Origin: Membranipora membranacea
Lineage: Eukaryota; Bryozoa; Gymnolaemata; Cheilostomatida; Membraniporidae
Length of the DNA stretch: 64,000 bases
Direction: 5' to 3'
Assembly (NCBI GenBank): GCA_914767715.1
Contig: OU612069.1
Coordinates: forward strand, 29,520,079 to 29,584,078
The notes under the pieces: model-generated
Told to the model about the DNA's origin: nothing
Database searches by the model: none
What the model saw: the letters and a program-made list of their open reading frames with translations, nothing else
Translations under genes and position numbers: made by a program
In this document: piece by piece, positions 3,414 to 56,052 of the stretch
Layout of the letters: each line of letters opens with the position of its first letter
Numbering within the stretch: the stretch's first letter is position 1

Positions 3414-3485
3414 GCTGCAGGCTGCTCAGCTGGGCACAATCGATGGTGTTATGAAGGAACTGGTGAATAATGAAGCTTTAAATAA

Positions 3486-9515: not shown

Positions 9516-9884
9516 AGATCCTGGGCTAAGATTTTGAGCATGATTAAAAAAGTCAATGATTTGGTAATTGGTTGGCTTAGCCGTCCTGTTTTGGTGTTGT
9601 TACAGCATTGAGGTCATTGAGCATGCTTTCCGATGTTATTTTAACAGCATCGGCATCTTGGCTTTGTAGACTTGCCCATGATAAGTCCATGCATATTTCC
9701 AGTTGAGAGCCTTTTTCTGTTTACGGGCTTTATAGAAAAGTTTTTGTTGGGCTGTGGAGAGCATTTCATTAATAAAAATGTTCCGTTCTTCTCTGAAACC
9801 GATGGTTTTTGTGGTAACCGTTTTCTTTTTGAAATTTTTTCTGGCATTGTACAGCTTTTCCCATGATGTTGTGTTGTTGAACTT

Positions 9885-30800: not shown

Positions 30801-33800
30801 CAGTGGTATGCGCACCACTGTATGTTGTATCCAGATCTGAAATTGGACTGAACCTAATCCTGCAGATGAGAGCAGTGACAACAACTTTGGAGTTAAAACG
30901 AGTCTCCAGCTTAAGCTGGTGAAACAAAAGAACATTTAATTTGAATACATAATACCTGGGTTTGTTACATAATGAATTTTAGTTTGTTTTTGTTAAGCTG
31001 ATGAGTATCTTTACACTCCCATCTTGAGTTTTTATAAAAAAAAAGAAATACAGAGAAAGGTCGATCCACTGCTGACTGTTCCAGACCCGGAAATAAAACT
31101 ATGCTAAGTCTTTGCGTAATATACGAGATTGGGACAACTAAATATGAGGTTTATAACGTAGATTAATGGGACATTTGCGGCATTTCAGCATCTGGAAAGT
31201 TTTCGCCATGTTAGATCACAGTTTGGGAAAAAATCACATATAGGGAAAAAGGCAAAAGATTTCACTTTAACGATTCCCTATCGTTAGACTTTCAGCTTAG
31301 GGGATTATGTGACTTGGGATTTTTACTGATGGAACTTGGACTTTTGTCGTACAATTTATAACATTTATTGTCGAGCTTTACCGAGATTCACACCGTGAAA
31401 TCTAAAAAGATTAACACAAATAATGACTATATATAAAGGCATTACACAGGTTCTCAAAAAGTAACCTTTATGGTGTTACTTTACAGCTTTTAAAATATAG
31501 TCATTATTTGTGTTAATCTTTTTAGATTTCACGGTGTGAATCTTGGTAAAGCTCGACAATAAATGTTGTAAATTGTACAACAAAAGTCCAAGTTCCATCA
31601 GTAAAAATCCCAAGTGACATAATCCCCTAAGCTGAAAGTCTAACGATAGGGAATCGTTAAAGGTGATAACACCTGATTGGTCTTTTGGGAGTCTTCAAAC
31701 ATATCAATGCAGGAGACTCATAATCAGTGAACCCATCATAAGAGGTTGTTGAGACTTATTTAGGATAATAATTATTCCTCAACGGTGGTTAACTTATAAA
31801 TAATCAAGTTAATCAGTACTAATGTATATATTGAGAGTTGAGGTATCAGTAACAGGAAGTGATGCTTATTTACCTGTCAGGTAGTTCGGTGAGCCTGCAT
31901 TTTGTCACATCAAGCTCCTTCAGGCTCTTTAGTTCTCCGATCCAATCAGGTAATGTACTCAGACTTGTATTCGATCCTACATTCAGTTCCTGCAGACCAG
32001 TCAGATGTCTCATACTGTAACAAGGAAAGTTATGTGAAGGTAAAGGGTTAGAAGTCGTGCTATGGTAATCACCAGTCTTTTGGCTACATAGCCGGACCGA
32101 GAGGCAGCCAGACCACAGATGACAAGTCAACAGACTTGGTAGTACAGGAATGCTATGCAGTAGAGTGAAACATGATTATCATGGTTCACCTATGCTATAA
32201 TAATACCTTATGGCTCAAAGTTGTATCCCTTGTAATATTGTGCAGACACTCTATAACTGATTCAAGTCATGTTACCGACCACTACACCAGTGGTCTGCTT
32301 TTATTGGTTGATGTGCTGTTAAAATGGGTTAACCCTTTAAATGATAAATCATGGTGTAAAATAGTCCTATGTAAGTATTATATCTTCCCGATGTGCGGAA
32401 AAGTTAGACGGAAGATAATATCTGTATCAGCTATGTTTAGTTTATTTTTAGCAAGGAGTAACAGGTTTGGTTTAAGTTACAAAGTTAGAATATTTACTGT
32501 ATTATACTTTGATGATTTACATGTTAGGGAGGTCTTGACACAATTTGGGAGATACTTTCAGCTCTTCCACCGGGCCAGTGAAAAATCTATAACTATGACA
32601 ATGCTGGCGACTCAAAATCAGTGAACCTATCAAGGAGATTATTGAGACTTTGCTAAGAAAATCACTATTTCTGAGTTCCCTCCATGACGGTTAACTTATA
32701 AATTGTCGAGTTAATCACCATCCACATCAGTCAGTATAATATTGTATTATATTGAGAGTTGAGGTAACATTGGTAATAAGTGATGCTTATTCACCTGTCA
32801 GGTAGATCAGTGAGTCCGCAAGAAGACACATCAAGCTTCTTTAGGCTCTTTAGTTCTCCGATCCAGTCAGGTAATGTACTCAGACTTGTATTCGATCCTT
32901 CATTCAGTTCCTGCAGACCAGTCAGATATCTCATACTGTAACAAGGAAAGTTATGTGAAGGTAAAGGGTTAGAAGTCGTGCTATGGAAATCACCAGTCTT
33001 TTGGCTACATAGCCGGACCGAGAGGCAGCCAGACCACAGATGACAAATCAACAGACTAGGGAGTACAGGAATGCTATGCGGTAGAGTGAAACATGATTAT
33101 CATGGTTCACCTATGCTATAATAATACCTTATGGCTCAAAGTTGTGTGCCCCTGTAATATTGTGCAGACAACTCTATCACTGAATCAAGTCATGTTACCG
33201 ACCACTACACCAGTGGTCTGCTTTTATTGGTTGATGTGCTGTTAAAATGGTTTAACCCTTTAAATGATAAATCATGGTGTAAAATAGTCCTATGTAAGTA
33301 TTATATCTTCCCGATGTGCGGAAAAGTTAGACGGAAGATAATATCTGTATCAGCTATGTTTAGTTTATTTTTAGCAAGGAGTAACAGGTTTGGTTCAATT
33401 TACAAAGTTAGAATATTTACTGTATTATACTTTGATGATTTACAAGTTACGGAGGTCTTGAGGCAATTTGGGAGATACTTTCAGCTCTTCCACCGGGTCA
33501 GGGAAACATCTATAACTATGACAATGCTGGCGACTCAAAATCAGAGAACCTATCAAGGAGATTATTGAGACTGTGCTAAGTAAGTCACTATTTCTGAGTT
33601 CCCTCCACGACGGTTAACTTATAAATTGTCGAATTAATCACCATCCACATCAGACAGTATAATATTGTATTATATTGAGAGTTGAGGTAACAGTGGTAAT
33701 AAGTGATGCTTATTCACATGTCAGGTAGATCAGTGAGTGCGCAAGAAGACACATCAAGCTTCTTTAGGCTCTTTAGTTCTCCGATCCAGTCAGGTAATGT

Positions 33801-36800
33801 ACTCAGACTTGTATACGATCCTACATTCAGTTCCTGCAGACCAGTCAGATGTCTCATACTGTAACAAGGAAAGTTATGTGAAGGTAAAGGGTTAGAAGTC
33901 GTGCTATGGAAATCACCAGTCTTTTGGCTACATAGCCGGACCGAGAGGCGGCCAGACCACAGATGACAAATCAACAGACTAGGGAGTACAGGAATGCTAT
34001 GCGGTAGAGTGAAACATGATTATCATGGTTCACCTATGCTATAATAATACCTTATGGCTCAAAGTTGTGTGCCCCTGTAATATTGTGCAGACAACTCTAT
34101 CACTGAATCAAGTCATGTTACCGACCACTACACCAGTGGTCTGCTTTTATTGGTTGATGTGCTGTTAAAATGGTTTAACCCTTTAAATGATAAATCATGG
34201 TGTAAAATAGTCCTATGTGAGTATTATATCTTCCCAATGAGCGGAAAAGTTAGACGGAGGATAATATCTGTATCACCTAAATTTAGTTTATTTTTAGCAA
34301 GGGGTAACGGGTGTGGTTTAAGTTACAAAGTTAGAATATTTACCGTATTATACTTTGATAATTTACAAGTTACGGAGGTCTTGACGCAATTTGGGAGATA
34401 CTTTCAGCTCTTCCACCGGGCCAGTGAAAAATCTATAACTATGACAATGTTGGCGACTCAAAATCAGAAAACCTATCAAGGAGATTATTGAGACTGTGCT
34501 AAGTAAATCACTATTTCTGAGTTCCCTCCACGACGGTTAACTTATAAATTGTCGAATTAATCACCATCCACATCGGACAGTATAATATTGTATTATATTG
34601 GGAGTTGAGGTAACAGTGGTAATAAGTGATGCTTATTCACCTGTCAGGTAGATCAGTGAGTCCGCAAGAAGACACATTAAGCTTCTTTAGGCTCTTTAGT
34701 TCTCCGATCCAATCAGGTAATGTACTCAGACTTGTATTCCGTTGTACAATCAGTTCCTCCAGACCAGTCAGATATCTCATACTGTAACAAGGAAAGTTAT
34801 GTGAAGGTAAAGGGTTAGAAGTCGTGCTATGGAAATCACCAATCTTTTGGCTACATAGCCGGACCGAGAGGCAGCCAGACCACAGATGACAAATCAACAG
34901 ACTAGGGAGTACAGGAATGCTATGCAGTAGAGTGAAACATGATTATCATGGTTCACCTATGCTATAATAATACCTTATGGCTCAAAGTTGTGTGCCCCTG
35001 TAATATTGTGCAGACAACTCTATCACTGAATCAAGTCATGTTACCGACCACTACACCAGTGGTCTGCTTTTATTGGTTGATGTGCTGTTAAAATGGTTTA
35101 ACCCTTTAAATGATAAATCATGGTGTAAAATAGTCCTATGTAAGTATTATATCTTCCCGATGTGCGGAAAAGTTAGACGGAAGATAATATCTGTATCAGC
35201 TATGTTTAGTTTATTTTTAGCAAGGAGTAACAGGTTTGGTTCAATTTACAAAGTTAGAATATTTACTGTATTATACTTTGATGATTTACAAGTTACGGAG
35301 GTCTTGAGGCAATTTGGGAGATACTTTCAGCTCTTCCACCGGGTCAGTGAAACATCTATAACTATGACAATGCTGGCGACTCAAAATCAGAGAACCTATC
35401 AAGGAGATTATTGAGACTGTGCTAAGTAAGTCACTATTTCTGAGTTCCCTCCACGACGGTTAACTTATAAATTGTCGAATTAATCACCATCCACATCAGA
35501 CAGTATAATATTGTATTATATTGAGAGTTGAGGTAACAGTGGTAATAAGTGATGCTTATTCACCTGTCAGGTAGATCAGTGAGTCCGCAAGAAGACACAT
35601 CAAGCTTCTTTAGGCTCTTTAGTTCTCCGATCCAGTCAGGTAATGTACTCAGACTTGTATACGATCCTACATTCAGTTCCTGCAGACCAGTCAGATGTCT
35701 CATACTGTAACAAGGAAAGTTATGTGAAGGTAAAGGGTTAGAAGTCGTGCTATGGAAATCACCAGTCTTTTGGCTACATAGCCGGACCGAGAGGCGGCCA
35801 GACCACAGATGACAAATCAACAGACTAGGGAGTACAGGAATGCTATGCGGTAGAGTGAAACATGATTATCATGGTTCACCTATGCTATAATAATACCTTA
35901 TGGCTCAAAGTTGTGTGCCCCTGTAATATTGTGCAGACAACTCTATCACTGAATCAAGTCATGTTACCGACCACTACACCAGTGGTCTGCTTTTATTGGT
36001 TGATGTGCTGTTAAAATGGTTTAACCCTTTAAATGATAAATCATGGTGTAAAATAGTCCTATGTGAGTATTATATCTTCCCAATGAGCGGAAAAGTTAGA
36101 CGGAGGATAATATCTGTATCACCTAAATTTAGTTTATTTTTAGCAAGGGGTAACGGGTGTGGTTTAAGTTACAAAGTTAGAATATTTACCGTATTATACT
36201 TTGATAATTTACAAGTTACGGAGGTCTTGACGCAATTTGGGAGATACTTTCAGCTCTTCCACCGGGCCAGTGAAAAATCTATAACTATGACAATGTTGGC
36301 GACTCAAAATCAGAAAACCTATCAAGGAGATTATTGAGACTGTGCTAAGTAAATCACTATTTCTGAGTTCCCTCCACGACGGTTAACTTATAAATTGTCG
36401 AATTAATCACCATCCACATCGGACAGTATAATATTGTATTATATTGGGAGTTGAGGTAACAGTGGTAATAAGTGATGCTTATTCACCTGTCAGGTAGATC
36501 AGTGAGTCCGCAAGAAGACACATTAAGCTTCTTTAGGCTCTTTAGTTCTCCGATCCAATCAGGTAATGTACTCAGACTTGTATTCCGTTGTACAATCAGT
36601 TCCTCCAGACCAGTCAGATATCTCATACTGTAACAAGGAAAGTTATGTGAAGGTAAAGGGTTAGAAGTCGTGCTATGGAAATCACCAATCTTTTGGCTAC
36701 ATAGCCGGACCGAGAGGCAGCCAGACCACAGATGACAAATCAACAGACTAGGGAGTACAGGAATGCTATGCAGTAGAGTGAAACATGATTATCATGGTTC

Positions 36801-39800
36801 ACCTATGCTATAATAATACCTTATGGCTCAAAGTTGTGTGCCCCTGTAATATTGTGCAGACAACTCTATCACTGAATCAAGTCATGTTACCGACCACTAC
36901 ACCAGTGGTCTGCTTTTATTGGTTGATGTGCTGTTAAAATGGTTTAACCCTTTAAATGATAAATCATGGTGTAAAATAGTCCTATGTAAGTATTATATCT
37001 TCCAAATGTGCGGAAAAGTTAGACGGAAGATAATATCTGTATCAGCTATGTTTAGTTTATTTTTAGCAAGGAGTAACAGGTTTGGTTCAATTTACAAAGT
37101 TAGAACATTTACTGTATTATACTTTGATGATTTACAAGTTACGGAGGTCTTGAGGCAATTTGGGAGATACTTTCAGCTCTTCCACCGGGTCAGTGAAACA
37201 TCTATAACTATGACAATGCTGGCGACTCAAAATCAGTGAACCTATCAAGGAGATTATTGACACTTTGCTAAGAAAATCACTTTTTCTTAGTTCCCTCCAT
37301 GACGGTTAACTTATAAATTCTCCAATTAATCACCATCCACATTACTCAGTACAATATTGTATTATATTGAGAGTTGAGGTAACAGTGGTAATAAGTGATG
37401 CTCATTCACCTGTCAGGTAGTTCTGTGAGACTGCAGTGAGTCACATCAAGCTTCTTTAGGCTCTTTAGTTCTCCGATCCAATCAGGTAATGTACTCAGAC
37501 TGTCATCCCATCCTAAATTCAGTTTCTCAAGACCAGTCAGATATCTCATACTGTAACAAGGAAAGTTATGTGAAGGTAAAGGGTTAGAAGTCGTGCTATG
37601 GAAATCACCAGTCTTTTGGCTACATAGCCGGACCGAGAGGCAGCCAGACCACAGATGACAAGTCAACAGACTTGGTAGTACAGGAATGCTATGCAGTAGA
37701 GTGAAACATGTTTATCATGGTTCACCTATGCTATAATAATACCTTATGGCTCAAAGTTGTGTGTCCCTGTAATATTGTGCAGACAACTCTATCACTGAAT
37801 CAAGTCATGTTACCGACCACTACACCAGTGGTCTGCTTTTATTGGTTGATGTGCTGTTAAAATGGTTTAACCCTTTAAATGATAAATCATGGTGTAAAAT
37901 AGTCCTATGTAAGTATTATATCTTCCAAATGTGCGGAAAAGTTAGACGGAAGATAATATCTGTATCAGCTATGTTTAGTTTATTTTTAGCAAGGAGTAAC
38001 AGGTTTGGTTCAATTTACAAAGTTAGAACATTTACTGTATTATACTTTGATGATTTACAAGTTACGGAGGTCTTGACGCAATTTGGGAGATACTTTCAGC
38101 TCTTCCACCGGGTCAGTGAAACATCTATAACTATGACAATGCTGGCGACTCAAAATCAGAGAACCTATCAAGGAGATTATTGAGACTGTGCGTGCTAAGT
38201 AAATCACTATTTCTGAGTTCCCTCCTCGACGGTTAACTTATAAATTGTCGAATTAATCACCATCCACATCAGACAGTATAATATTGTATTATATTGAGAG
38301 TTGAGGTAACAGTGGTAATAAGTGATGCTTATTCACCTGTCAGGTAGTTCTGTGAGACTGCAGTGAGTCACATCAAGCTCCTTCAGGCTCTTTAGTTCTC
38401 CGATCCAATCAGGTAATGTACTCAGACTGTCATCCAATCCTAAATTCAGTTTCTCAAGACCAGTCAGATATCTCATACTGTAACAAGGAAAGTTATGTGA
38501 AGGTAATGGGTTAGAAGTCGTGCTATGGAAATCACCAGTCTTTTGGCTACATAGCCGGACCGAGAGGCAGCCAGACCACAGATGACAAGTCAACAGACTT
38601 GGTAGTACAGGAATGCTATGCAGTAGAGTGAAACATGTTTATCATGGTTCACCTATGCTATAATAATACCTTATGGCTCAACGTTGTGTGTCCCTGTAAT
38701 ATTGTGCAGACAACTCTATCACTGAATCAAGTCATGTTACCGACCACTACACCAGTGGTCTGCTTTTATTGGTTGATGTGCTGTTAAAATGGTTTAACCC
38801 TTTAAATGATAAATCATGGTGTAAAATAGTCCTATGTAAGTATTATATCTTCCAAATGTGCGGAAAAGTTAGACGGAAGATAATATCTGTATCAGCTATG
38901 TTTAGTTTATTTTTAGCAAGGAGTAACAGGTTTGGTTCAATTTACAAAGTTAGAACATTTACTGTATTATACTTTGATGATTTACAAGTTACGGAGGTCT
39001 TGACGCAATTTGGGAGATACTTTCAGCTCTTCCACCGGGTCAGTGAAACATCTATAACTATGACAATGCTGGCGACTCAAAATCAGAGAACCTATCAAGG
39101 AGATTATTGAGACTGTGCGTGCTAAGTAAATCACTATTTCTGAGTTCCCTCCTCGACGGTTAACTTATAAATTGTCGAATTAATCACCATCCACATCAGA
39201 CAGTATAATATTGTATTATATTGAGAGTTGAGATAACAGTGGTAATAAGTGATGCTTATTCACCTGTCAGGTAGTTCTGTGAGTGTGCAGTGAGACACAT
39301 CAAGCTTCTTTAGGCTCTTTAGTTCTCCGATCCAATCAGGTAATGTACTCAGACTTGTATTCGATCCTACATTCAGTTCCTGCAGACCAGTCAGATGTCT
39401 CATACTGTAACAAGGAAAGTTATGTGAAGGTAAAGGGTTAGAAGTCGTGCTATGGAAATCACCAGTCTTTTGGCTACATAGCCGGACCGAGAGGCAGCCA
39501 GACCACAGATGACAAATCAACAGACTAGGGAGTACAGGAATGCTATGCGGTAGAGTGAAACATGATTATCATGGTTCACCTGTGCTATAATAATACCTTA
39601 TGGCTCAAAGTTGTGTGTCCCTGTAATATTGTACAGACAACTCTATCACTGAATCAAGTCATGTTATCGACCACTACACAAGTGGTTTGCTTTTATTGGT
39701 TGATGTGCTGTTAAAATGGTTTAACCCTTTAAATGATAAATCATGGTGTAAAATAGTCCTATGTAAGTATTATATCTTCCAAATGTGCGGAAAAGTTAGA

Positions 39801-42800
39801 CGGAAGATAATATCTGTATCAGCTATGTTTAGTTTATTTTTAGCAAGGGGTAACGGGTGTGGTTTAAGTTACAAAGTTAGAATATTTACCGTATTATACT
39901 TTGATAATTTACAAGTTACGGAGGTCTTGACCCAATTTTGGAGATACTTTCAGCTCTTCCAAAGGGCCAGTGAAAAATTTATGACTATGACAATGCTGGC
40001 GACTGAAAATCAGTGAACATATCAGGGAGATCATTGAGACTTTGCTAAGTAAATCATTACTCCTGAGTCCCCTCCATGACGGTTAACTTAGAAATTGTCG
40101 AGTTAATCACCATCCACATCAGTCAGTATAATATTGTATTATATTGAGAGTTGAGGTAACAGTGGTAATAAGTGATGCTTATTCACCTGTCAGGTAGTTC
40201 TGTGAGCCTGCAGTGAGACACATCAAGCTCCTTCAGGCTCTTTAGTTCTCCGATCCAATCAGGTAATGTACTCAGACTGTCATCCCATCCTAAATTCAGT
40301 TTCTCAAGACCAGTCAGATATCTCATACTGTAACAAGGAAAGTTACGTGAAGGTAAAGGGTTAGAAGTCGTGCTATGGAAATCACCAGTCTTTTGGCTAC
40401 ATAGCCGGACCGAGAGGCAGCCAGACCACAGATGACAAGTCAACAGACTAGGGAGTACAGGAATGCTATGCAGTAGAGTGAAACATGATTATCATGGTTC
40501 ACCTATGCTATAATAATACCTTATGGCTCAAAGTTGTGTGTCCCTGTAATATTGTACAGACAACTCTATCACTGAATCAAGTCATGTTACTGACCACTAC
40601 ACCGGTGGTCTGCTTTTATTGGTTGATGTGCTGTTAAAATGGTTTAACCCTTTACATGATAAATCATGGTGTAAAATAGTCCTATGTAAGTATTATATCT
40701 TCCCAATGTGCGGAAAAGTTAGACGGAGGATAATATCTGTATCAGCTAAGTTTAGTTTATTTTTAGCAAGGGGTAACGGGTGTGGTTTAAGTTACAAAGT
40801 TAGAATATTTACCGTATTATACTTTGATAATTTACAAGTTACGGAGGTCTTGACGCAATTTTGGATATACTTTCAGCTCTTCCACCGGGTCAGTGAAAAA
40901 TCTATAACTATGACAATGCTGGCGACTCAAAATCAGTGAACCTATCAAGGAGATTATTGAGACTGTGCTAAGTAAATCACTATTTCTGAGTTCCCTCCAC
41001 GACGGTTAACTTATAAATTGTCGAATTAATCACCATCCACATCAGACAGTATAATATTGTATTATATTGAGAGTTGAGGTAACAGTGGTAATAAGTGATG
41101 CTTATTCACCTGTCAGGTAGATCAGTGAGTCCGCAAGAAGACACATCAAGCTTCTTTAGGCTCTTTAGTTCTCCGATCCAGTCAGGTAATGTACTCAGAC
41201 TTGTATTCCACCATACACACAGTTCCTCAAGACCAGTCAGATACCTCATACTGTAACAAGGAAAGTTATGTGAAGGTAAAGGGTTAGAAGTCGTGCTATG
41301 GAAATCACCAGTCTTTTGGATACATAGCCGGACCGAGAGGCAGCAAGACAACAGATGACAAATCAACAGACTTGGTAGTACAGGAATGCTATGCAGTAGA
41401 GTGAAACATGATTATCATGGTTCACCTATGCTATAATAATACCTTATGGCTCAAAGTTGTGTGTCCCTGTAATATTGTGCAGACAACTCTATCACTGAAT
41501 CAAGTCATGTTACCGACCACTACACCGGTGGTCTGCTTTTATTGGTTGATGTGCTGTTTAAATGGTTTAACCCTTTAAATGATAAATCATGGTGTAAAAT
41601 AGTCCTATGTAAGTATTATATCTTCCCGATGTGCGGAAAAATTAGACGGAAGATAATATCTGTATCAGCTATGTTTAGTTTATTTTTAGCAAGGAGTAAC
41701 AGGTTTGGTTTAAGTTACAAAGTTAGAATATTTACTGTATTATACTTTGATGATTTACATGTTAGGGAGGTCTTGACTCAATTTGGGAGATACTTTCAGC
41801 TCTTCCACCGGGCCAGTGAAAAATTTATAACTATGACAATGCTGGCGACTCAAATTCAGTGAACCTATCAAGGAGATTATTGAGACTTTGCTAAGAAAAT
41901 CACTATTTCTGAGTTCCCTCCATGACGGTTAACTTATAAATTGTCGAGTTAATCACCATCCACATCAGTCAGTATAATATTGTATTATATTGAGAGTTGA
42001 GGTAACAGTGGTAATAAGTGATGCTTATTCACCTGTCAGGTAGTTCTGTGAGACTGCAGTGAGTCACATCAAGCTTCTTTAGGCTCTTTAGTTCTCCGAT
42101 CCAATCAGGTAATGTACTCAGACTGTCATCCCATCCTAAATTCAGTTCCTCAAGACCAGTCAGATATCTCATACTGTAACAAGGAAAGTTATGTGAAGGT
42201 AAAGGGTTAGAAGTCGTGCTATGGAAATCACCAGTCTTTTGGCTACATAGCCGGACCGAGAGGCAGCCAGACCACAGATGACAAGTCAACAGACTTGGTA
42301 GTACAGGAATGCTATGCAGTAGAGTGAAACATGTTTATCATGGTTCACCTATGCTATAATAATACCTTATGGCTCAAAGTTGTGTGTCCCTGTAATATTG
42401 TGCAGACAACTCTATCACTGAATCAAGTCATGTTACCGACCACTACACCAGTGGTCTGCTTTTATTGGTTGATGTGCTGTTAAAATGGTTTAACCCTTTA
42501 AATGATAAATCATGGTGTAAAATAGTCCTATGTAAGTATTATATCTTCCCAATGTGCGGAAAAGTTAGACGGAAGATAATATCTGTATCAGCTATGTTTA
42601 GTTTATGTTTAGCAAGGAGTAACAGGTTTGGTTCAATTTACAAAGTTAGAACATTTACTGTATTATACTTTGATGATTTACAAGTTACGGAGGTCTTGAC
42701 GCAATTTGGGAGATACTTTCAGCTCTTCCACCGGGTCAGTGAAACATCTATAACTATGACAATGCTGGCGACTCAAAATCAGAGAACCTATCAAGGAGAT

Positions 42801-45800
42801 TATTGAGACTGTGCTAAGTAAATCACTATTTCTGAGTTCCCTCCACGACGGTTAACTTATAAATTGTCGAATTAATCACCATCCACATCAGACAGTATAA
42901 TATTGTATTATATTGAGAGTTGAGGTAACAGTGGTAATAAGTGATGCTTATTCACCTGTCAGGTAGATCAGTGAGTCCGCAAGAAGACACATCAAGCTTC
43001 TTTAGGCTCTTTAGTTCTCCGATCCAGTCAGGTAATGTACTCAGACTTGTATTCGATCCTTCATTCAGTTCCTGCAGACCAGTCAGATGTCTCATACTGT
43101 AACAAGGAAAGTTATGTGAAGGTAAAGGGTTAGAAGTCGTGCTATGGAAATCACCAGTCTTTTGGCTACATAGCCGGACCGAGAGGCAGCCAGACCACAG
43201 ATGACAAATCAACAGACTTGGGAGTACAGGAATGCTATGCGGTAGAGTGAAACATGATTATCATGGTTCACCTATGCTAAAATAATACCTTATGGCTCAA
43301 AGTTGTGTGCCCCTGTAACATTGTGCAGACAACTCTATTACTGAATCAAGTCATGTTACCGACCACTACACCAGTGGTCTGATTTTATTGGTTGATGTGC
43401 TGTTAAAATGGTTCAACCCTTTAAATGATAAATCATGGTGTAAAATAGTCCTATGTAAGTATTATATCTTCCCAATGTGCGGAAAAGTTAGACGGAGGAT
43501 AATATCTGAATCAGCTAAGTTTAGTTTATTTTTAGCAAGGGGTAACAGGTTTGGTTTAAGTTACAAAGTTAGAATATTTACTGTATTGTACTTTGATGAT
43601 TTACAAGTTACGGAGGTCTTGACCCAATTTTGGAGATACTTTCAGCTCTTCCAAAGGGCCAGTGAAAAATTTATGACTATGACAATGCTGGCGACTGAAA
43701 ATCAGTGAACATATCAGGGAGATCATTGAGACTTTGCTAAGTAAATCATTACTCCTGAGTCCCCTCCATGACGGTTAACTTATAAATTGTCGAGTTAATC
43801 ACCATCCACATAAGTCAGTATAATATTGGGAGTAGAGGTAACATTGGGAATAAGTGATGCTTATTCACCTGTCAGGTAGTTCTGTGAGCCTGCAGTTTCT
43901 CACATCAAGCTTTTTCAGGCTCTTTAGTTTTCCGATCCAGTCAGGTAATGTACTCAGACTTGTATTCGATCGTACAATCAGTTCCTCCAGACCAGTCAGA
44001 TATCTCATACTGTAACAAGGAAAGTTATGTGAAGGTAAAGGGTTAGAAGTCGTGCTATGGAAATCACCAGTCTTTTGGCTACATAGCCGGAACGAAAGGC
44101 AGCAAGACCACAGATGACAAATCAACAGAGTTTGGAGTACAGGAATGCTATGCAGTAGAGTGAAACATGATTATCATGGTTCACCTATGTTATAATAATA
44201 CCTTATGGCTCAAAGTTGTGTGCCCCTGTAATATTGTGCAGACAACTCTATCACTGAATCAAGTCATGTTACCGACCATTACACCAGTGGTCTGCTTTTA
44301 TTGGTTGATGTGCTGTTAAAATGGTTTAACCCTTTAAATGATAAATCATGGTGTAAAATAGTCCTATGTAAGTATTATATCTTCCCAATGTGCAGAAAAG
44401 TTAGACGGAAGATAATATCTGTATAAATTGTCGAGTTAATCACCATCCACATCAGTCAGTATAATATTGTATTATAGGGGAAGGCGGGGAACGTTGAGCC
44501 ATGGGGCACGTTGATCCACCCCACTTTTTTCAAATACCATTTTATCTTTTGAGTTTTCCTCTCCATCAGAGGCCATGTGCTCAAAGGTACCCTTTTTGAG
44601 CAGACAAAAGTAAAGATAGCTACTAAGGGAAGATAATTAATCAGTTTTTCATCGTTTTTAGCGCAAAAAGTAAATAATGCGCTAATCGACGGAAATGTCA
44701 TCTGTTCCCAAAAAGGCATGACTGAGGAATTGCAACTTTTATTATGTGATGACATCATATTTAGTCTCAATTGTACATAATCTAAACTTATCTCTGATGG
44801 AGAGATTTTGTTTAACTTGAGTTGAAAGTGAAAAACAGTCTGTTGGGGCACGTTGATCCATGCCCGTTGGGGCACTTTGAGCCATGCCCTGGAGTATTTG
44901 AAAATTATATGATGAAAGTGTATATGAAGTATATGTACACAAAAACAAAAACATTGGAACCGATGTATCTTAATGAAATAAGCAATTACTCTTGAGTTGA
45001 CTTTTCCATCACTTATCATCAAGTTTGCCGTGTGCAAGATTTCCTATACCGCAAAAAGATGACCATAACAGAGTGGCTCAACGTGCCCCATACAAAATGC
45101 AAACCCGGCTCAACGTGCCCCGTGCTTGGGGCACGTTGAGCCGCTTCCCGAATTTTTTTGAAACAGCAATATTTCCTTTTCCTGCTGCAATAGTTTTCTG
45201 ACCTCACTCATGTTGATGGAAGACATGAAGACCAATTTCAGTACCAATCCTTGTCAATCTGGCACAATTCAACTGCATGTTACAATCCAATATGTAAAAA
45301 CTGGCACAACGTACCCCCGCCTTCCCCTATTGAGAGTTGAGGTAACAGTGGGAATAAGTGATGCTTATTCACATGTCAGGTAGTTCTGTGAGACTGCAGA
45401 CATGTAAGATATCTTATACTGTGATAAAAAAACAGTTGGATGGTGAATAAATGTTTTATTATTGTCAAAAGATCTGGTAACTGAAGATTTTCTCACTAAG
45501 TGTTCAACAAGGAGCGAGCGGGTAAATTTTAGATGGTGCCTCTGAAGATGGAAGGCAATGATATTATATTTCCTTGCGGATAATCAGGCAAGCGTTCTTG
45601 TATTCACCTTGTCTTAATAACTTATCATTGCAACAGGATTAGGAGGTGGCTCAGTTTGGTAGAGCACAGATTTGGAGGTTGACATGAATAGACGACTAGG
45701 GTTTGGATGGCCCCAGGTGTGCTCCAAAACAGAGCCAATTTATATCCTTGGAAAGGTCTAGCCCTACATTGTTTTGGCATCAGTATGATTCAGAGTTGTC

Positions 45801-47453
45801 AGAACAACAGATAAGACAATCTTTCAGCTCGGCTTACTATTTATTTACCTGGACATAAGAACTTGATGAACATCAAACATACTCATGTTACCAGAACGCT
45901 AACCCAACTTACTCTACCATTTTGCGAGTTTGGATAGCACTTCAGTAAAAAAAACTTTGTTTCACATTTTACATGGCAGCCTACCAATCTATGTCTTCAG
46001 GTAAATTATCAGAGTTAAGACGTTACTACAAGTCAGTTTATGCAATGGCAGCCAATAGAACACTGCAGGTGTTGTCAATCAATTATCTAAAATTTCAACA
46101 ATAGTGTAGATTGTTAAAGATTTTCTCTCAACCATAATGAAAGAACTAGAAAATAAAATTATTCCATTGTTTGCTGTTTATCCTCACAGTATGTAGTAAT
46201 GTACAGCTACTAAGAATTAATAACGTCACACGTCAAGGCAGCGAATTATTAATTGCTTTATGGGCTAGGCTGCAATGTCTGCACAAGGTTGCTCTATAAT
46301 TGCAGGCAGGTCGGAGCACATCTGGGGGCCAATCAAACCCCAGTAGTCAATAGAATGCAGTGGGATATGAACCCCTGACCTTATAATCACTTTCATGCTG
46401 AAGGACCGGCGCTCTAACCAACTGAGCCACCTCCTACTCCTAGAGGAGGATAGACTGCGTCCAGGACTGCTGGATCTGCATCAGCTCTCTACATTAGTGT
46501 GACCCTGATATTAAGGTAATACTTATATTTTGTGTTTGATATGTAACATCCTGCTGTTTAATAATGCAGGGGAGACAAATTAGTTATTTACTGCAGAGTT
46601 TACACAACTTACCCTGTTGACTGATCTGCAGTTGTTAAGTTCTCCAGTCTCAACACTTTGAGGTGAGGTGCTTTCTGATTTAGAGGTGGTATATCTCCAC
46701 TAATAACCATGTGTGTCACAGTGTGACCTTCTGTAGCTGATATAAACTCATGTAGTGTTAGTTTCCTGTAGTTCACATCTTCAGGTATATCATCGATATC
46801 TGGCTCACTGTCATCTCTGTACCAGATATCATACTTATCTGTCAACATTAATCACTTTTATCAACAGAGACATCAGGGTGGGTACATCATAGTGGTGAGG
46901 ACCCTTTACTCTCAATATTATAATCACAGCAAACTGAAATTGGGGCAGGCTGCAAATCCCACAACTATAGACACTGGAAATCTACAGACAGCACTGACCA
47001 TAACAAAATAAATAGCCATTATAAGGGAAGAAGGTACCATGGTCGCACACAAGAAGCTACCATGGTCGCACACAAGAAGCTACCATGGTCGCACGCAAGA
47101 AGAGTAAGTTTATGCAGTAGTAAAAGTTTACAGGTGCTTAAATTATAAACATATAAGGTTTGCTTAAAATTACTCTTTCCTCAACTAGCCAAAATTTTCT
47201 GCTAGCTAACATTAAGTCAACCCAAACTAACTAAACAAAATAATTGCTACTATTTAACCATCCAGAGTGTTTACCAATAAAGACCATACTTTTAGGTTTT
47301 CATTCTGAAAACATAAATCTCACCTCGCTGACTATCTGCTGGTTGACTTGTACCTGAGTCCTCACTCTGGTGATCCTCTGAGTCCTGACTCTGGTTATTC
47401 TCTGCGGACTCGATTCCAGGTTTCTTAGTAGTATTCTGCTGTTGTGTATCCAT
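11832..47453 (-). CDS. LRR-ROC-COR-pseudocaspase protein (Roco family), whole gene
   Basis: Joined exons listed separately give 7854 nt including the stop, 2617 codons, with every junction phase matching. Approximate residues: 1-118 acidic N-terminus and first LRR; 119-776 fourteen 47-residue LRR cassettes; 777-870 three LRRs; 877-1015 ROC GTPase; 1090-1440 COR; 1447-1547 linker; 1548-1855 caspase p20 plus p10; then an unrecognised C-terminal region to 2617. Roco proteins use a ROC-COR dimer as a GTP-dependent switch for an attached effector; here the effector is a caspase fold with a Ser in place of the catalytic Cys. No signal peptide or membrane segment is seen, so it is probably cytosolic. 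A sensor or scaffold role in immunity or cell death is inference. Number of cassettes used in mRNA, and a small optional exon at 12979-13036, are uncertain. Confidence 0.85.
13126..13626 (-). CDS. C-terminal region exon B, unrecognised domain
   Basis: 167 codons after a TTTTTTTAG acceptor, entering in phase 0 with ESLLMNKRMKMHQQL, then a long open frame with strands such as NVITAVIFVSGFQ and TNTLVVFHEGLVHF. It ends either at 13126 (AAG/GTTGGT, phase 0, straight to the last exon) or at 13122 (phase 1) if a short exon at about 12979-13036 (VLYEAGLEYPPGATNQIT) is included. Both parses keep the frame. Confidence 0.65.
13786..14343 (-). CDS. C-terminal region exon A, unrecognised domain
   Basis: 186 codons, phase 0 at both ends, preceded by TTTTTAG. 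It has hydrophobic strands such as YSVVTIVWMRSK and SKYLVVASLPAF, and a CEMCYFTC cluster. It looks like a folded alpha/beta domain rather than a linker, but matches nothing I know. The donor GTTAGC is atypical. Confidence 0.7.
14486..14610 (-). CDS. Post-caspase acidic exon
   Basis: Acceptor CATCAG, donor GTGGGT. It enters in phase 1 (giving DEPETETGIPDEQ) and leaves in phase 0. It is acidic and Ser/Thr-rich with no recognised domain, probably a flexible linker to the C-terminal region. Confidence 0.7.
14900..15131 (-). CDS. Caspase p10 C-terminal exon
   Basis: It begins IREAVSMYSAE (the V-x-R-x-V helix position), and KAQVDQMPKNT followed by CTFTGDRQLYL matches the caspase ending (K-x-Q-x-P, then LTKxLYF). 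About 25 further residues extend past the usual caspase end before the phase 1 GTAATA donor. Confidence 0.8.
15300..15400 (-). mobile_element. tRNA-derived SINE fragment in intron
   Basis: On the minus strand a B-box-like GGTTCAAGTCCCACTGAG lies downstream of GGCGAGCATGCTGAAGAAGG. It resembles the internal part of a tRNA but the acceptor stem does not close. It lies in the intron between the last two caspase exons. Confidence 0.35.
15663..15772 (-). CDS. Caspase p10 core exon
   Basis: The acceptor TTTGTAG gives the junction SGFDGFASARSPVLGSPFI, which aligns without gaps to the p10 block YxSWRNxxxGSWFI of caspases. The Arg of SxR that contacts P1 Asp is kept, although the catalytic Cys is not. 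The helix ALTLYKMADRYDMVTMSNI follows. Donor GTAAGT, phase 0. Confidence 0.85.
16114..16323 (-). CDS. Caspase inter-subunit linker and p10 start
   Basis: Phase 1 to phase 1, 210 nt. The first 50 residues are Ser/Gln/Glu-rich and look disordered (a p20-p10 linker). The end, LEISVPDLLIMQSGFDG, matches the first p10 strand (ADFLVAYST-type position) and the PG turn. Confidence 0.8.
16567..16807 (-). CDS. Caspase p20 exon b with Cys-to-Ser active site
   Basis: Eighty codons plus one base. The strand GMFVLVVTSHGDEGSVLG carries the catalytic His (codon at 16703-16705). KPKLVIIQASSG occupies the position of KPKxxxIQACRG, with Ser (TCC, 16574-16576) in place of the nucleophilic Cys. His-to-Ser spacing is 43 residues, close to the usual His-to-Cys spacing, so the alignment needs no gap. 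Phase 1 donor GTAAGG. The fold should form; thiol protease activity should not. Confidence 0.9.
16966..19402 (+). mobile_element. LINE fragment, tandem copy 1
   Basis: A 2437-bp unit inside the intron that splits the caspase p20, in the orientation opposite to the host gene. The downstream half carries a broken RT: GSVPEDWKKAVV-type palm start, CVLDFSRAFD (motif A), then AQHIKYLGVKLDLE and HIDHVVAKGNSTLGFI, the late RT blocks of CR1/Jockey-like LINEs. The region with motifs B and C (including the catalytic YADD or FADD) is deleted, and there are several stops. The upstream 700 bp are unidentified. Confidence 0.8.
19403..21839 (+). mobile_element. LINE fragment, tandem copy 2
   Basis: It repeats copy 1 at an exact offset of 2437 bp. 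Every readable peptide is identical between copies, including the same internal deletion and the same stops. This is a recent tandem duplication of an already dead fragment, or an assembly artefact. Just beyond it, 21900-21958 holds about five copies of a 12-bp AAATCAAGGTAC-like repeat. Confidence 0.85.
22420..22605 (-). CDS. Caspase p20 exon a
   Basis: 62 codons, phase 0 at both ends. VYKMTEPRGRALILSNMYQ matches the first p20 strand. ENDLMKHGLEHDYENMKRVL matches the following helix of caspases (the D-x-x-x-L pattern). The R-x-GT basic motif that binds P1 Asp in active caspases is not obvious here. The donor GTATAA is weak. It joins the next p20 exon across a 5.6-kb intron filled by the duplicated LINE, giving NAKDIVDAI in frame. 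Confidence 0.85.
22891..23063 (-). CDS. Linker exon 2 leading into the caspase
   Basis: Acceptor TTTCAG, donor GTATAT. It encodes ITVPHQGSITQTG (with the split codon) through LVTEPTQTLYE, leaving in phase 0. Its last residues plus the next exon read TLYEVYKMTEPRGRALIL, the usual run-in of a caspase p20 (a Y-x-M segment before the RG-x-ALI strand). Confidence 0.8.
23355..23483 (-). CDS. Linker exon 1 (basic/acidic helix)
   Basis: The phase 1 acceptor TCACAG gives a junction reading RYPCDRLTKKEL. It encodes a charged, probably helical segment (KKELKKVKDYVRELEEE) and a Gly/Ser-rich tail, and ends in phase 1 at GTATGT. It connects COR to the caspase part. Confidence 0.75.
23850..25858 (-). CDS. 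Three LRRs + ROC GTPase + COR exon
   Basis: A single 2009-nt exon. Residues 1-90: LRRs (LTYLDIGGNQFTTLPP and two more). Residues 101-240: ROC, with P-loop GSTLAGKTS at 107-115, switch-I Thr pair near 139, DFGGN at 159-163 (the DxxG step; LRRK-type proteins have DFAG) and THMD at 228-231 in place of NKxD. Residues about 310-600: COR, including HDVGRILWFERDVILRQYVF. A Cys-rich end (CKFFCSHC) follows. All nucleotide-binding motifs look intact, so GTP binding is expected. The donor after CCCGT is GTGAGT, phase 1. Confidence 0.93.
26260..26420. repeat. GC-rich repeat-like module
   Basis: A GC-rich island in AT-rich intron sequence, with short self-complementary runs (GGGGCGGAGCCCC; GGGGGGCGGTGTGAGCCCCCC). 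It resembles a transposon-derived module but no terminal repeats were identified. Confidence 0.35.
26515..26611. repeat. Inverted repeat hairpin
   Basis: GGGCCCCTAAGACTCTTACA at the left pairs with TGTAAGTCCCAGGGGCC at the right, and CATGCCTCTAC pairs exactly with GTAGAGGCATG. The loop is about 40 bases. It lies in the 6-kb intron and may be a small MITE. Confidence 0.6.
26900..27370 (-). pseudogene. YqaJ-exonuclease-like remnant
   Basis: Two minus-strand frames contain fragments that resemble a YqaJ-type recombinase/exonuclease fold: TMDQSKGALWKAARKGRI (the QS-x-W-x-x-x-R-x-x-RI start) and ELGIESEDKAREGL (the GI-x-x-E-x-x-AR helix). Spacing and stops show decay. Such domains are common in invertebrate transposons. 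The match is by pattern only. Confidence 0.35.
28856..29081. mobile_element. Possible hAT-like MITE
   Basis: Ends CAGGACCGTAG and CTACGGCCCTG form imperfect inverted repeats around 226 bp of non-coding sequence. No matching 8-bp target duplication was found, so the assignment is weak. Confidence 0.3.
29670..30044 (+). pseudogene. Retroelement C-terminal endonuclease-like fragment
   Basis: 124 codons with RPDLIVWSDKEKALILMELT, then VPWEENLSYAHERKLTRYED, and later VEVGCRGF and a final SASAWIWQQHC. This resembles the restriction-like endonuclease region (PD...E-x-T-V, K-x-x-KY) seen at the C-terminus of some non-LTR retrotransposon polyproteins. The repeat continues to about 30790; a second, inverted copy lies at 53440-54180. 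Identification by pattern, not by search. Confidence 0.45.
31262..31667. repeat. Long foldback (two ~175-bp arms)
   Basis: The left arm (about 31262-31437) is almost perfectly reverse-complementary to the right arm (about 31493-31667); for example CGATTCCCTATCGTTAGAC pairs with GTCTAACGATAGGGAATCG. The loop is roughly 55 bases. It is placed in the intron right beside the LRR array. A MITE or a double-stranded RNA-forming hairpin are both possible. Confidence 0.85.
31874..32014 (-). CDS. LRR cassette exon, 14th (last)
   Basis: Variable strands LQELNVGSNTS and KELDVTKCRLTELPD. The donor is AG/GTAAAT. In phase 2 it joins the ROC-COR exon across a 6-kb intron to give LPDSLSALKNL, a seamless LRR continuation. 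Confidence 0.85.
32795..32935 (-). CDS. LRR cassette exon, 13th
   Basis: Variable strands LQELNEGSNTS and KKLDVSSCGLTDLPD. A Glu replaces the usual buried Val/Leu of the first strand, as in the cassette at 42956. Confidence 0.85.
33718..33858 (-). CDS. LRR cassette exon, 12th, weakened donor
   Basis: Variable strands LQELNVGSYTS and KKLDVSSCALTDLPD. The last exon base is T instead of G (AT/GTGAAT rather than AG/GTGAAT). GT remains, but the donor is weaker, and the junction codon would encode Ile instead of Ser. This cassette may be skipped more often. Confidence 0.8.
34641..34781 (-). CDS. LRR cassette exon, 11th
   Basis: Variable strands LEELIVQRNTS and KKLNVSSCGLTDLPD. Identical peptide to the 9th cassette at 36487. 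Confidence 0.85.
35564..35704 (-). CDS. LRR cassette exon, 10th
   Basis: Variable strands LQELNVGSYTS and KKLDVSSCGLTDLPD. It is the duplicate partner of the cassette at 33718, from which it differs by Gly for Ala in the second strand and by a normal donor. Confidence 0.85.
36487..36627 (-). CDS. LRR cassette exon, 9th
   Basis: Variable strands LEELIVQRNTS and KKLNVSSCGLTDLPD. The peptide is identical to the cassette at 34641, being part of the duplicated two-unit block. Confidence 0.85.
37410..37550 (-). CDS. LRR cassette exon, 8th
   Basis: Variable strands LEKLNLGWDDS and KKLDVTHCSLTELPD. WDDS group. Normal acceptor and donor. Confidence 0.85.
38337..38477 (-). CDS. LRR cassette exon, 7th
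   Basis: Variable strands LEKLNLGLDDS and KELDVTHCSLTELPD. It differs from its neighbour at 37410 by Trp to Leu in the first strand and Lys to Glu in the second. The downstream 927-bp spacing carries a 4-bp duplication (GTGCGTGC). Confidence 0.85.
39264..39404 (-). CDS. LRR cassette exon, 6th
   Basis: Variable strands LQELNVGSNTS and KKLDVSHCTLTELPD. The first half equals that of the last cassette (31874); the second half is private. Confidence 0.85.
40187..40327 (-). CDS. LRR cassette exon, 5th
   Basis: Variable strands LEKLNLGWDDS and KELDVSHCRLTELPD. The WDDS-type first half is combined with a second half found nowhere else in exactly this form. Confidence 0.85.
41110..41250 (-). CDS. 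LRR cassette exon, 4th
   Basis: Variable strands LEELCVWWNTS and KKLDVSSCGLTDLPD. The first strand is unique in the array (Cys, Trp, Trp at exposed positions), while the second is the commonest type. This is a mosaic of a private and a shared half. Confidence 0.85.
42033..42173 (-). CDS. LRR cassette exon, 3rd
   Basis: Variable strands LEELNLGWDDS and KKLDVTHCSLTELPD. It belongs to the WDDS sequence group shared with the cassettes at 37410, 38337 and 40187, but has EEL where those have EKL. Confidence 0.85.
42956..43096 (-). CDS. LRR cassette exon, 2nd
   Basis: Variable strands LQELNEGSNTS and KKLDVSSCGLTDLPD. It is the same combination as the cassette at 32795, nine units away, with one change in the flanking RHL/RYL position. 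Proper TACAG acceptor and CAG/GTGAAT donor. Confidence 0.85.
43869..44009 (-). CDS. LRR cassette exon, 1st in transcript order
   Basis: Two LRRs in 47 residues. The variable strands read LEELIVRSNTS and KKLDVRNCRLTELPD. It is the only cassette with WIGKLKSL instead of WIGELKSL, and its flanking intron is the most diverged (913-bp spacing), as expected for an array edge. Confidence 0.85.
44477..45327. mobile_element. 851-bp TA-flanked element in the array
   Basis: It interrupts an array unit at a TA that is duplicated (44475-44476 and 45328-45329), so the uninterrupted neighbour units show the exact empty site. Termini GGGGAAGGCGGGG...ACGTTG at the left and the reverse complement at the right form imperfect inverted repeats. 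The interior repeats a GGGGCACGTTGAGCC-type motif in both orientations at least six times. TA duplication suggests Tc1/mariner-type mobilisation. No transposase is encoded. Confidence 0.85.
45373..45418 (-). pseudogene. Degenerate LRR cassette exon
   Basis: Both edges of a cassette exon are recognisable, but about 95 internal bases are missing. What remains shifts frame and reads into TGA, and the acceptor AG context is also altered. It is the outermost, oldest-looking unit, separated from the array by the 44477-45327 transposon. Confidence 0.7.
45636..45790 (+). mobile_element. tRNA-derived SINE, copy 1
   Basis: It starts at GGATTAGGAGGTGGCTCAG with A-box sequence, and a decayed B box lies near 45705. 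The distal part GTGTGCTCC is shared with the copies at 46265-46443 and 49034-49200, which defines a family. Confidence 0.6.
46265..46443 (-). mobile_element. tRNA-derived SINE, copy 2
   Basis: The minus strand begins GAGTAGGAGGTGGCTCAG, followed by TTGGTTAGAGCGCCGG and a B box GGGGTTCATATCCC, then the family body with GTGCTCCGACCTGCC. It lies 170 bp from exon 2 of the Roco gene. Confidence 0.7.
46613..46838 (-). CDS. Roco gene exon 2 (N-terminal cap and first LRR)
   Basis: The acceptor is TTGACAG and the donor GTAAGT. The exon enters in phase 1 and leaves in phase 2, exactly the phase needed by the LRR cassettes. It encodes about 75 residues beginning DKYDIWYRDDSEPD and ending with HLKVLRLENLT, the first recognisable LxxLxLxxL strand. 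It is the fixed 5' partner to which any cassette could splice. Confidence 0.8.
47033..47101. repeat. Three-copy 25-bp tandem repeat
   Basis: ACCATGGTCGCACACAAGAA occurs three times at about 25-bp spacing in the first intron of the Roco gene. Confidence 0.85.
47324..47453 (-). CDS. Roco gene exon 1 (start)
   Basis: ATG at 47453 in context ACCATGG. It encodes 43 polar residues beginning MDTQQQNTTKKPG and rich in Asp, Glu, Gln and Ser, and ends in phase 1 at a GTGAGA donor. It joins exon 2 to give DSQRDKYDIW. The acidic tract looks disordered. No upstream promoter element was identified. Confidence 0.7.
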
Positions 47454-54403: not shown

Positions 54404-56052
54404 TAATTGTGTGTCACCAGGGAGAATGCAGTGAGTGTGACCAGGGAGAATGCAGTGAGTGTCACCAGGGAGAATACAGTGAGGGAGAATGCAGTGAGTG
54501 TGACCAGGGAGAATGCAGTGAGTGTGACCAGTGAGAATGCAGTGAGTGTGACCAGGGAGAATGCAGTGAGTGTCACCAGGGAGAATGCAGTGAGTGCCAC
54601 CAGGGAGAATGCAGTGAGTGTCACCAGGGAGAATGCAGTGAGTGTCACCAGGGAGAATGCAGTGAGTGTCACCAGGGAGAATGCAGTGAGTGTCACCAGG
54701 GAGAATGCAGTGAGTGTCACCAGGGAGAATGCAGCGAGTGTCACCAGGGAGAATGCAGCGAGTGTCACCAGGGAGAATGCAGAGAGTGTCACCAGGGAGA
54801 ATGCAGTGAGTGTGACCAGGGAGAATGCAGTGAGTGTCACCAGGGAGAATGCAGTGAGTGTCACCAGGGAGAATGCAGTGAGTGTGACCAGGGAGAATGC
54901 AGTGAGTGTCACCAGGGAGAATACAGTGAGGGAGAATGCAGTGAGTATGACCAGGGAGAATGCAGTGAGTGTGACCAGTGAGAATGCAGTGAGTGTGACC
55001 AGGGAGAATGCAGTGAGTGTCACCAGGGAGAATGCAGTGAGTGCCACCAGGGAGAATGCAGTGAGTGTCACCAGGGAGAATGCAGTGAGTGTCACCAGGG
55101 AGAATGCAGTGAGTGTCACCAGGGAGAATGCAGTGAGTGTCACCAGGGAGAATGCAGTGAGTGTCACCAGGGAGAATGCAGCGAGTGTCACCAGGGAGAA
55201 TGCAGCGAGTGTCACCAGGGAGAATGCAGAGAGTGTCACCAGGGAGAATGCAGTGAGTGTGACCAGGGAGAATGCAGTGAGTGTCACCAGGGAGAATGCA
55301 GTGAGTGTGACCAGGGAGAATGCAGTGAGTGTGACCAGGGAGAATGCAGTGAGTGTCACCAGGGAGAATGCAGTGAGTGTCACCAGGGAGAATGCAGTGA
55401 GTGTCACCAGGGAGAATGCAGTGAGTGTCACCAGGGAGAATGCAGTGAGTGTCACCAGGGAGAATGCAGTGAGTGTCACCAGGGAGAATGCAGTGAGTGT
55501 CACCAGGGAGAATGCAGTGAGTGTGACCAGGGAGAATGCAGTGAGTGTCACCAGGGAGAATGCAGTGAATGTCACCAGGGAGAATGCAGTGAGTGTCACC
55601 AGGGAGAATGCAGTGAGTGTCACCAGGGAGAATGCAGTGAGTGTCACCAGGGAGAATGCAGTGAGTGTCACCAGGGAGAATGCAGCGAGTGTCACCAGGG
55701 AGAATGCAGCGAGTGTCACCAGGGAGAATGCAGCGAGTGTCACCAGGGAGAATGCAGAGAGTGTCACCAGGGAGAATGCAGTGAGTGTCACCAGGGAGAA
55801 TGCAGTGAGTGTCACCAGGGAGAATGCAGTGAGTGTGACCAGGGAGAATGCAGTGAGTGTGACCAGGGAGAATGCAGTGAGTGTCACCAGGGAGAATGCA
55901 GTGAGTGTCACCAGGGAGAATGCAGTGAGTGTCACCAGGGAGAATGCAGTGAGTGTCACCAGGGAGAATGCAGTGAGTGTTACCAGGGAGAATGCAGTGA
56001 GTGTCACCAGAGAGAATGCAGTGAGTGTCACCAGGGAGAATGCAGTGAGTGT
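54404..56052. repeat. 24-bp minisatellite with higher-order structure
   Basis: Roughly 68 copies of GTGTCACCAGGGAGAATGCAG plus three bases. Variants (GTGTGACC, GCGAGTG, AGAGAGTG) recur in the same order: the AATACAGTGAGGGAG variant at 54470 and 54920, and the GCGAG cluster at about 54733, 55183 and 55683. This shows ~450-500-bp higher-order duplications. Because the unit is a multiple of three, both strands are open for over 540 codons; this is a length artefact, not evidence for a protein. Confidence 0.95.

Follow-up and report, generated by a model that had tools for sequence, protein, structure and literature searches.

The closest described counterparts of the locus considered here are the brown algal LRR-ROCO genes and those exons of NLRP genes that carry two leucine-rich repeats (LRRs) each. 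The locus is an array of 14 cassette exons in a 64,000-nucleotide stretch of chromosome 5 of the bryozoan Membranipora membranacea (C5:29520079-29584078, called the window in the following), and it belongs to a gene of the Roco type, here called G1. Our reading, to which we assign a probability of roughly 70%, is that the array forms the sensor of a candidate family of intracellular bryozoan receptors and owes its diversity to unequal exchange of phase-2 cassettes in the germline.

Brown algal LRR-ROCO genes were reportedly treated by Zambounis in 2012, in a study known to us through a paper that cites it. Their LRRs are encoded by phase-2 exons of 72 bp, four concave sites are under positive selection, splice variants occur, and the repeat number is very variable, up to 49 LRRs (PMC11378527, relevant passages). 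As far as these passages describe the algal genes, they share with G1 the LRR-ROC-COR architecture, the repeated phase-2 LRR exons and the variable repeat number, and also the spacing of the concave sites (14, 16, 18 and 19 in the algae; 9, 11, 13 and 14 of the first LRR in the bryozoan). Diversifying selection at such sites is reported there for the algae, and in the bryozoan the exposed codons have a dN/dS of 1.75 over five arrays, while the contrast in G1 alone is not significant. The algal exon encodes one LRR in 72 bp, the bryozoan one two in 141 bp. Unlike the algal genes as described, those of the bryozoan, an animal, have a caspase domain, introns homogenised below the divergence of the exons, and similar front ends joined to two unlike back ends.

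Human NLRP3 has frame-preserving exons with two LRRs, 171 bp long compared to 141 bp in the bryozoan, and one of them is alternatively spliced (PMC6642158, in the part concerned). The NLRP and bryozoan genes have thus in common, on that description, two LRRs per frame-preserving exon and a link to caspase signalling. NLRP-type genes have NACHT in place of ROC-COR and a smaller number of exons, and they are not known to form a diversifying tandem array. In Tetrahymena, arrays of 90-bp LRR exons show an extreme phase-2 bias and a recent species-specific expansion (PMC6564038, in part). Long arrays of fixed-length phase-2 LRR exons are common to both organisms, but Tetrahymena is a ciliate, its unit has 30 residues, and the passages of that paper on these arrays do not mention ROC-COR. 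The first-pass annotation of the window had compared the array to lamprey VLRs, in which extracellular LRRs are assembled somatically, and to arthropod Dscam with its mutually exclusive immunoglobulin exons. Repeat cassettes yielding diverse recognition surfaces are indeed a likeness, but these are not the nearest systems. In another bryozoan, Watersipora subatra, the MFHAS1-like proteins P0009-P0012, and likewise P0146, are homologous LRR-ROC-COR proteins, some with a caspase domain. Their repeated two-LRR unit has 46 residues, one fewer than that of Membranipora, and is variable at the same positions; the ROC-COR parts are ~36% identical to that of G1, and Watersipora is represented by proteins alone. 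No description of such cassettes in animals or bryozoans was found in the open PMC literature, searched by titles and the starts of abstracts, with most subscription papers outside the search.

We now turn to the array itself. The window has 39.7% GC and contains no N. Using one exon as query, blastn finds 14 cassette copies on the minus strand at a spacing of ~923 bp, together with a 28-bp match to a relic; in 64 kb of animal DNA such an array is far beyond chance. All 14 exons are exactly 141 bp long, preceded by ...TTACAG and followed by GT, and all have an open frame, with one base before the first codon and two after the last, that is, phase 2-2. The spacing ranges over 913-927 bp, mostly 923, and the introns over 772-786 bp. 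Each cassette encodes two LRRs with the consensus MRYLTGLxxLxxxxxxSLSTLPDWIGELKSLKKLDVxxCxLTxLPD(S). The exon size, phase, repeat content and unit length given in the first-pass annotation are confirmed by these data, as is its estimate of about 31 LRRs if all exons are used (28 in the cassettes and ~3, counted by eye, in the ROC exon, with a further, degenerate one in exon N2). It also placed the array at 31690..44430; the array is real, but the measured limits, 31874-44009, lie slightly inside. Thirteen of the 14 exons and 12 of the 13 introns are distinct sequences, and the most recent event seen is the duplication of a two-unit block of 1846 bp inside the array (99.73% identity, 5 differences).

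The earlier description of the array as homogenised is correct for the introns, which have a mean identity of 96.2% and a nucleotide diversity (pi) of 0.0375, but not for the exons, with 89.9% and 0.1015, whose concave-face codons are diversified. Simple homogenisation was accordingly rejected, as no part of the unit is more diverged than its exon. The highest pi of any 141-bp intron window in G1 is at most 0.062, and segregating sites occupy 36 of 141 exon columns compared to 101 of 786 intron columns (p 2.6e-4). The excess divergence is concentrated at codons 8-16 (pi 0.218) and at codons 33-43 (pi 0.178), while the middle third of the exon, at 0.043, is about at the intron level. Since this value is close to that of the introns and since whole units duplicate, as the 1846-bp block does, an introner-like spread of introns was also rejected as the reason why the introns resemble each other more than the exons do. 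Among the 12 inner cassettes, 55 of the 66 pairs have exons that are less similar than either flanking intron, and the correlation between exon and flanking-intron similarity is weak (r 0.10 and 0.23).

The exposed positions were defined by the LRR motif LxxLxLxxNx, as codons 8, 9, 11, 13, 14, 16, 32, 33, 35, 37, 38 and 40. Amino-acid variation in G1 occurs at 11 of these 12 positions and at 5 of the 34 others (p 3e-6), the set having been chosen from the motif after the list of variable codons had been seen. At the exposed codons the pairwise nonsynonymous difference is 0.27, ~7 times the intron divergence of 0.037, and the synonymous one, 0.234, is also high; the exposed blocks look like old lineages that have been kept apart while the remainder was homogenised.

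The same pattern is found beyond G1. Exon pi exceeds intron pi in all five arrays described below (0.1015/0.0375, 0.147/0.082, 0.106/0.054, 0.153/0.060 and 0.096/0.043), where the intron values come from the 61 of 87 introns that have standard length, only 3 of them in G2, the 26 of unusual length having been left out. Parsimony counts over the 73 distinct exons give 179 nonsynonymous to 23 synonymous changes at the exposed codons (dN/dS 1.75, p 0.005) and 24 to 33 at the core codons (0.35, p 7e-5), with 82 to 37 at the remaining ones (0.62) and 285 to 93 overall (0.95). In the same 73 sequences, exposed positions have an entropy of 1.67 bits, against 0.38 bits for the others (p 1.7e-4). Variability peaks at positions 11, 13, 14, 16 and 37, 38, 40, at and just past the short strands that a structure model of P0010, the Watersipora homologue, predicts; by eye, these strands map to cassette positions 9-11 and 33-35. 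Ten Watersipora LRR units, from 3 of 9 proteins examined, vary at the equivalent positions (1.04 vs 0.28 bits, p 0.001), although the "other" positions look more conserved here because the search pattern fixed several leucines. Judged by motif and model, the differences between cassette exons sit on the predicted concave face of the LRRs.

G1 is one of five genes with such arrays on chromosome 5, its own array lying ~0.4 Mb from the end of the contig. In the window and 230 kb more we counted 92 cassettes, which is a lower bound: 40 of 202 candidates were scored, all of them on this chromosome, and the upstream end of G4, the sequence beyond C5:29785000 and the 922 bases between the window and the first tile lie outside the count. 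Intact 141-bp open exons with AG/GT make up 91 of the 92, an upper bound, since cassettes were found by similarity and decayed copies are under-counted; the 92nd, at C5:29635077, seemingly has one extra codon. There are 73 distinct cassette sequences at the DNA level and 69 at the protein level. With the genes delimited by the positions of their N1/N2 and ROC exons, G1 has 14 cassettes, G2 9, G3 42, G4 at least 16 (its N-terminus is outside the DNA read) and G5 11. These numbers, together with the 1846-bp duplicated block, bear out the earlier proposal that the array can expand and contract. In G3, 15 cassettes at C5:29712725-29730381 (L033-L035) are identical in protein sequence (MRYLTGLEELIVRSNTS...TKCRLTELPD), and the introns among them mostly alternate between 780 and 782 bp, a recent expansion in this 42-cassette gene.

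The back ends of the five genes are of two kinds. G1, G4 and G5 have one type of ROC; identity to G1 is 97% for G5, and for G4 94% in residues 36-229 and 78% in the first 40. G2 and G3 have a ROC-COR-caspase part of another type, with 23-27% identity to G1 (27% over residues 27-373, 24% over 376-622); their ROC exons are open, with frames of 813 and 751 residues, and the caspase motif is intact. Both exons (L022, L029; ~C5:29603742-29604277 and 29674462-29674811) contain an acidic, repeat-rich insertion, GREGGD...DEFGDG..., whose length differs between the two genes. The ROC exon of G4 is cut after about residue 229. G5 lies 1.3 Mb away in inverted orientation and, although the ROC exon is open, has a stop in exon X3 (L043, C5:28219507-28219677).

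At the front, exon N2 of G1 has copies with 88-97% identity in G2, G3 and G5, N1-like exons (55-57% identity) are found upstream of the same three arrays, and the cassettes are of the same family. All N2 donors (four genes) and all ROC acceptors (five genes) are in phase 2, as assigned by eye. Alike N-terminal exons and cassettes thus precede two unlike ROC-COR-caspase back ends, both with phase-2 acceptors. G4 shows in addition a switch inside its array. On the 3' side it matches G1 with 98.8-99.1% identity over C5:29743595-29750512, and the match has a sharp end inside an intron between two cassettes. Past 29750512 it follows G2, at 93% to 29752620 and 96% over 29751238-29753500, although the first 3 kb past the switch are weakly assigned to G2, since cassette stretches of G1 and G2 are mostly ~91% identical or less; over 29753493-29757008 and 29767873-29785000 the identity to G2 is 98% (97.6-98.4%). 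As G4 matches G1 on one side and G2 on the other, recombination has taken place within the cassette region. Since G4 and G5 look damaged, G4 does not demonstrate an intact swapped gene, and the argument for exchange of front and back ends rests on the alike front ends shared by G1 and G2/G3. The earlier reading was right about the modularity of the array but missed the stronger signal, which is selection on the binding face together with exchange between genes.

In the gene model, G1 has 27 exons that join without a stop across 2268 amino acids, in the order acidic N-terminus, N-terminal LRR, 14 two-LRR cassettes, ROC-COR and caspase domain (Table 1). Exon N2 was located by tblastn with the N-termini of Watersipora P0017/P0146 (E 7e-5 and 0.014), and a gene start at E1 was rejected once N1 and N2 had been found. 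The earlier placement of the array in a Roco gene is well founded. The LRRs precede a ROC domain scoring above the Pfam cut-off (PF08477, E 6.7e-7, 30 bits vs 27), followed by a COR-A match that is below the curated one (E 7e-6, 26.4 bits vs 35.3). The closest proteins to the ROC exon are LRR-ROC-COR proteins, P0001 with 60% identity and the others with at most 45%, including Watersipora proteins named as MFHAS1 homologues (36-38%); a second protein search was dominated by unrelated LRR proteins. The model of P0010 (mean pLDDT 75) has as its best match 6hlu, the LRR-Roc-COR of the Chlorobium tepidum Roco protein, followed by LRRK1/LRRK2.

The caspase domain of G1 is nearly full-length (PF00656, E 3.4e-22, profile positions 1-229 of 233). 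The catalytic Cys of caspases lies in a QACxG motif; in G1 it is replaced by Ser (QASSG), while G2, G3 and Watersipora keep QACSG. The best match among PDB sequences is a CED-3 entry that likewise has QAS at the motif, and which we take to be an engineered Cys-to-Ser mutant. By its sequence, the G1 domain is a natural pseudo-caspase within the same family. Among the Pfam hits of the scanned pieces there is no NACHT or NB-ARC, ROC being present instead, and no secretion or membrane domain, although no signal-peptide search was made.

The mechanism we propose is as follows. The receptors would consist of an acidic N-terminus, a long LRR solenoid, a ROC-COR GTPase and a caspase or pseudo-caspase. 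With two LRRs per exon between phase-2 introns, any number of cassettes, any front end and any back end could join in frame. In the germline, the number and order of the cassettes would change by unequal crossing-over and gene conversion with the frame intact, and a front end may switch back end via the phase-2 joints. Selection would retain the leucine core and favour new binding surfaces on the concave face. The mRNA would normally contain all cassettes, so that the solenoid would have ~31 repeats in G1 and more than 80 in G3. Ligand binding would be relayed by ROC-COR to the caspase in G2 and G3, while the G1 caspase, having no catalytic Cys, would act through binding. The likely role of such proteins would be the recognition of pathogens or non-self.

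Other explanations were also considered. The cassettes could be skipped or chosen in varied combinations, giving many isoforms per individual. That all 14 are frame-neutral with near-identical splice sites is in line with this, and there are precedents in the several splice variants of exon-shuffled LRR-ROCO genes in brown algae (PMC11378527, same passages) and, on a small scale, in the skipping of the 171-bp two-LRR exon of human NLRP3 (PMC6642158, same part). However, tandem duplication of a single exon by itself yields the symmetric phase, splice sites this alike give no hint of selective regulation, and the Watersipora gene model P0146 has at least 7 units in one predicted protein; we regard a splicing repertoire as possible but doubtful. 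A broader version, in which regulated splicing of the 9-42 cassettes per gene and recombination between arrays together build many solenoids on interchangeable ROC-COR-caspase outputs within an individual or colony, seems rather unlikely. The receptors might instead serve self/non-self recognition between colonies or gametes and not antimicrobial defence. Bryozoans are colonial, and diversity of the binding face would fit this role too, but the Pfam hits of the scanned pieces include no domain typical of secreted or membrane proteins, which suits an intracellular sensor, and we consider such a function distinctly unlikely. Could the array simply be relaxed or decaying, the exon differences being old neutral variation and the introns homogenised by chance? 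The relic cassette, the lost catalytic Cys and an overall dN/dS near 1 point this way. With 91 of 92 cassettes open and bounded by AG/GT (an upper bound, as said above), a core dN/dS of 0.35, and a replacement divergence at the exposed codons of G1 of 0.27 against 0.037 in the introns, this is very improbable. An assembly artefact, with false tandem copies or joined haplotypes, had been named beforehand as what would overturn the array. Segments of G2, G3 and G4 are ~98% alike, as two haplotypes might be, and two blocks of the G1 array are 99.7% alike. Most units are nevertheless distinct, there is no N across the 264 kb of the cluster (the 922 bases after the window end excepted), and the source, tzMemMemb1.1, is a curated assembly from 66-fold HiFi reads (PMC10290214, according to its assembly details), so that an artefact is scarcely credible.

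It is important to point out that several observations weigh against germline diversification of a receptor as well. In G1 alone, the nonsynonymous to synonymous ratio of 25:6 at the exposed codons is not significantly different from the 7:6 at the others (p 0.13), the overall dN/dS is ~0.8-0.95, and the parsimony counts rest on a tree of recombining sequences. G4 and G5 look damaged and may be pseudogenes, and the G1 copy has no catalytic Cys. Finally, we infer an immune role solely from architecture and selection.

Some further features are found in and around the array. The intron upstream of E1 is disrupted by an 857-bp element between the relic cassette E0 and E1; as read by eye, the relic, if spliced in phase 2, would run into an in-frame stop. 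The element contains internal 'ggggcacgttgagcc'-like repeats. A long, MITE-like (miniature inverted-repeat transposable element) inverted repeat at 31200-31680, noted by eye, lies in the intron that separates E14 from the ROC exon, and in the X4-X5 intron the frames of 17588-19394 are repeated identically 2437 bp further, at 20025-21831, as a tandem duplication. Elsewhere in the window there are a THAP domain followed by P-element-like transposase frames at 2853-5167 (+), remains of a retrotransposon without long terminal repeats at 6691-9599 (reverse transcriptase PF00078, E 3e-28, at 7086-7769; adjoining frames by eye), and a 1.6-kb minisatellite of 24-bp units at 54411-56052, in which several frames are open on both strands.

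Table 1. Exons of G1 and associated features, in the order of transcription (window positions).
Feature	Position	Strand	Remarks
Exon N1	47324..47453	-	start codon, acidic N-terminus MDTQQQNTT..., ends in phase 1; joins in frame
Exon N2	46613..46838	-	conserved domain of the N-terminus with the first LRR; donor in phase 2
Relic cassette E0	45373..45418	-	15th, dead; 46 nt remain; from blastn of a unit and sequence
Inserted element	44474..45330	.	857 bp; terminal inverted repeats of ~28 bp, 90% alike; self-blast
Cassette E1	43869..44009	-	141 bp, two LRRs, phase 2-2
Cassette E2	42956..43096	-	blastn match, phase 2-2
Cassette E3	42033..42173	-	blastn match, phase 2-2
Cassette E4	41110..41250	-	blastn match, phase 2-2
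Cassette E5	40187..40327	-	blastn match, phase 2-2
Cassette E6	39264..39404	-	blastn match, phase 2-2
Cassette E7	38337..38477	-	blastn match, phase 2-2
Cassette E8	37410..37550	-	blastn match, phase 2-2
Cassette E9	36487..36627	-	same sequence as E11
Cassette E10	35564..35704	-	blastn match, phase 2-2
Cassette E11	34641..34781	-	starts the recent 1846-bp duplicate of the two-unit block from E9
Cassette E12	33718..33858	-	final base of exon T, donor T/GTGAAT
Cassette E13	32795..32935	-	blastn match, phase 2-2
Cassette E14	31874..32014	-	blastn match, phase 2-2
ROC exon	23850..25858	-	2009 bp; last LRRs, ROC GTPase, COR; phase-2 acceptor
Exon X2	23355..23483	-	linker
Exon X3	22891..23063	-	linker
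Exon X4	22420..22605	-	caspase domain begins
Exon X5	16567..16807	-	caspase p20, SHG histidine, QASSG where relatives have QACSG
Exon X6	16114..16323	-	linker
Exon X7	15663..15772	-	caspase p10-like
Exon X8	14900..15131	-	C-terminal part of caspase
Exon X9	14486..14610	-	C-terminal extension, less certain; open frame and phase only
Exon X10	13786..14343	-	C-terminal extension, less certain; open frame and phase only
Exon X11	13126..13626	-	C-terminal extension, less certain; open frame and phase only; gene may continue past it

If our reading of G1 as a germline-diversified receptor is correct, the diversification of an LRR sensor through exon cassettes, known for Roco genes from brown algae, would occur also in an animal and with a caspase output. 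The locus would be a natural experiment, with the introns as a local yardstick beside each selected cassette and with differing copy number and exchange among the five arrays of a single chromosome. It would thereby become testable how an invertebrate that has neither V(D)J nor VLR maintains a changing recognition repertoire.

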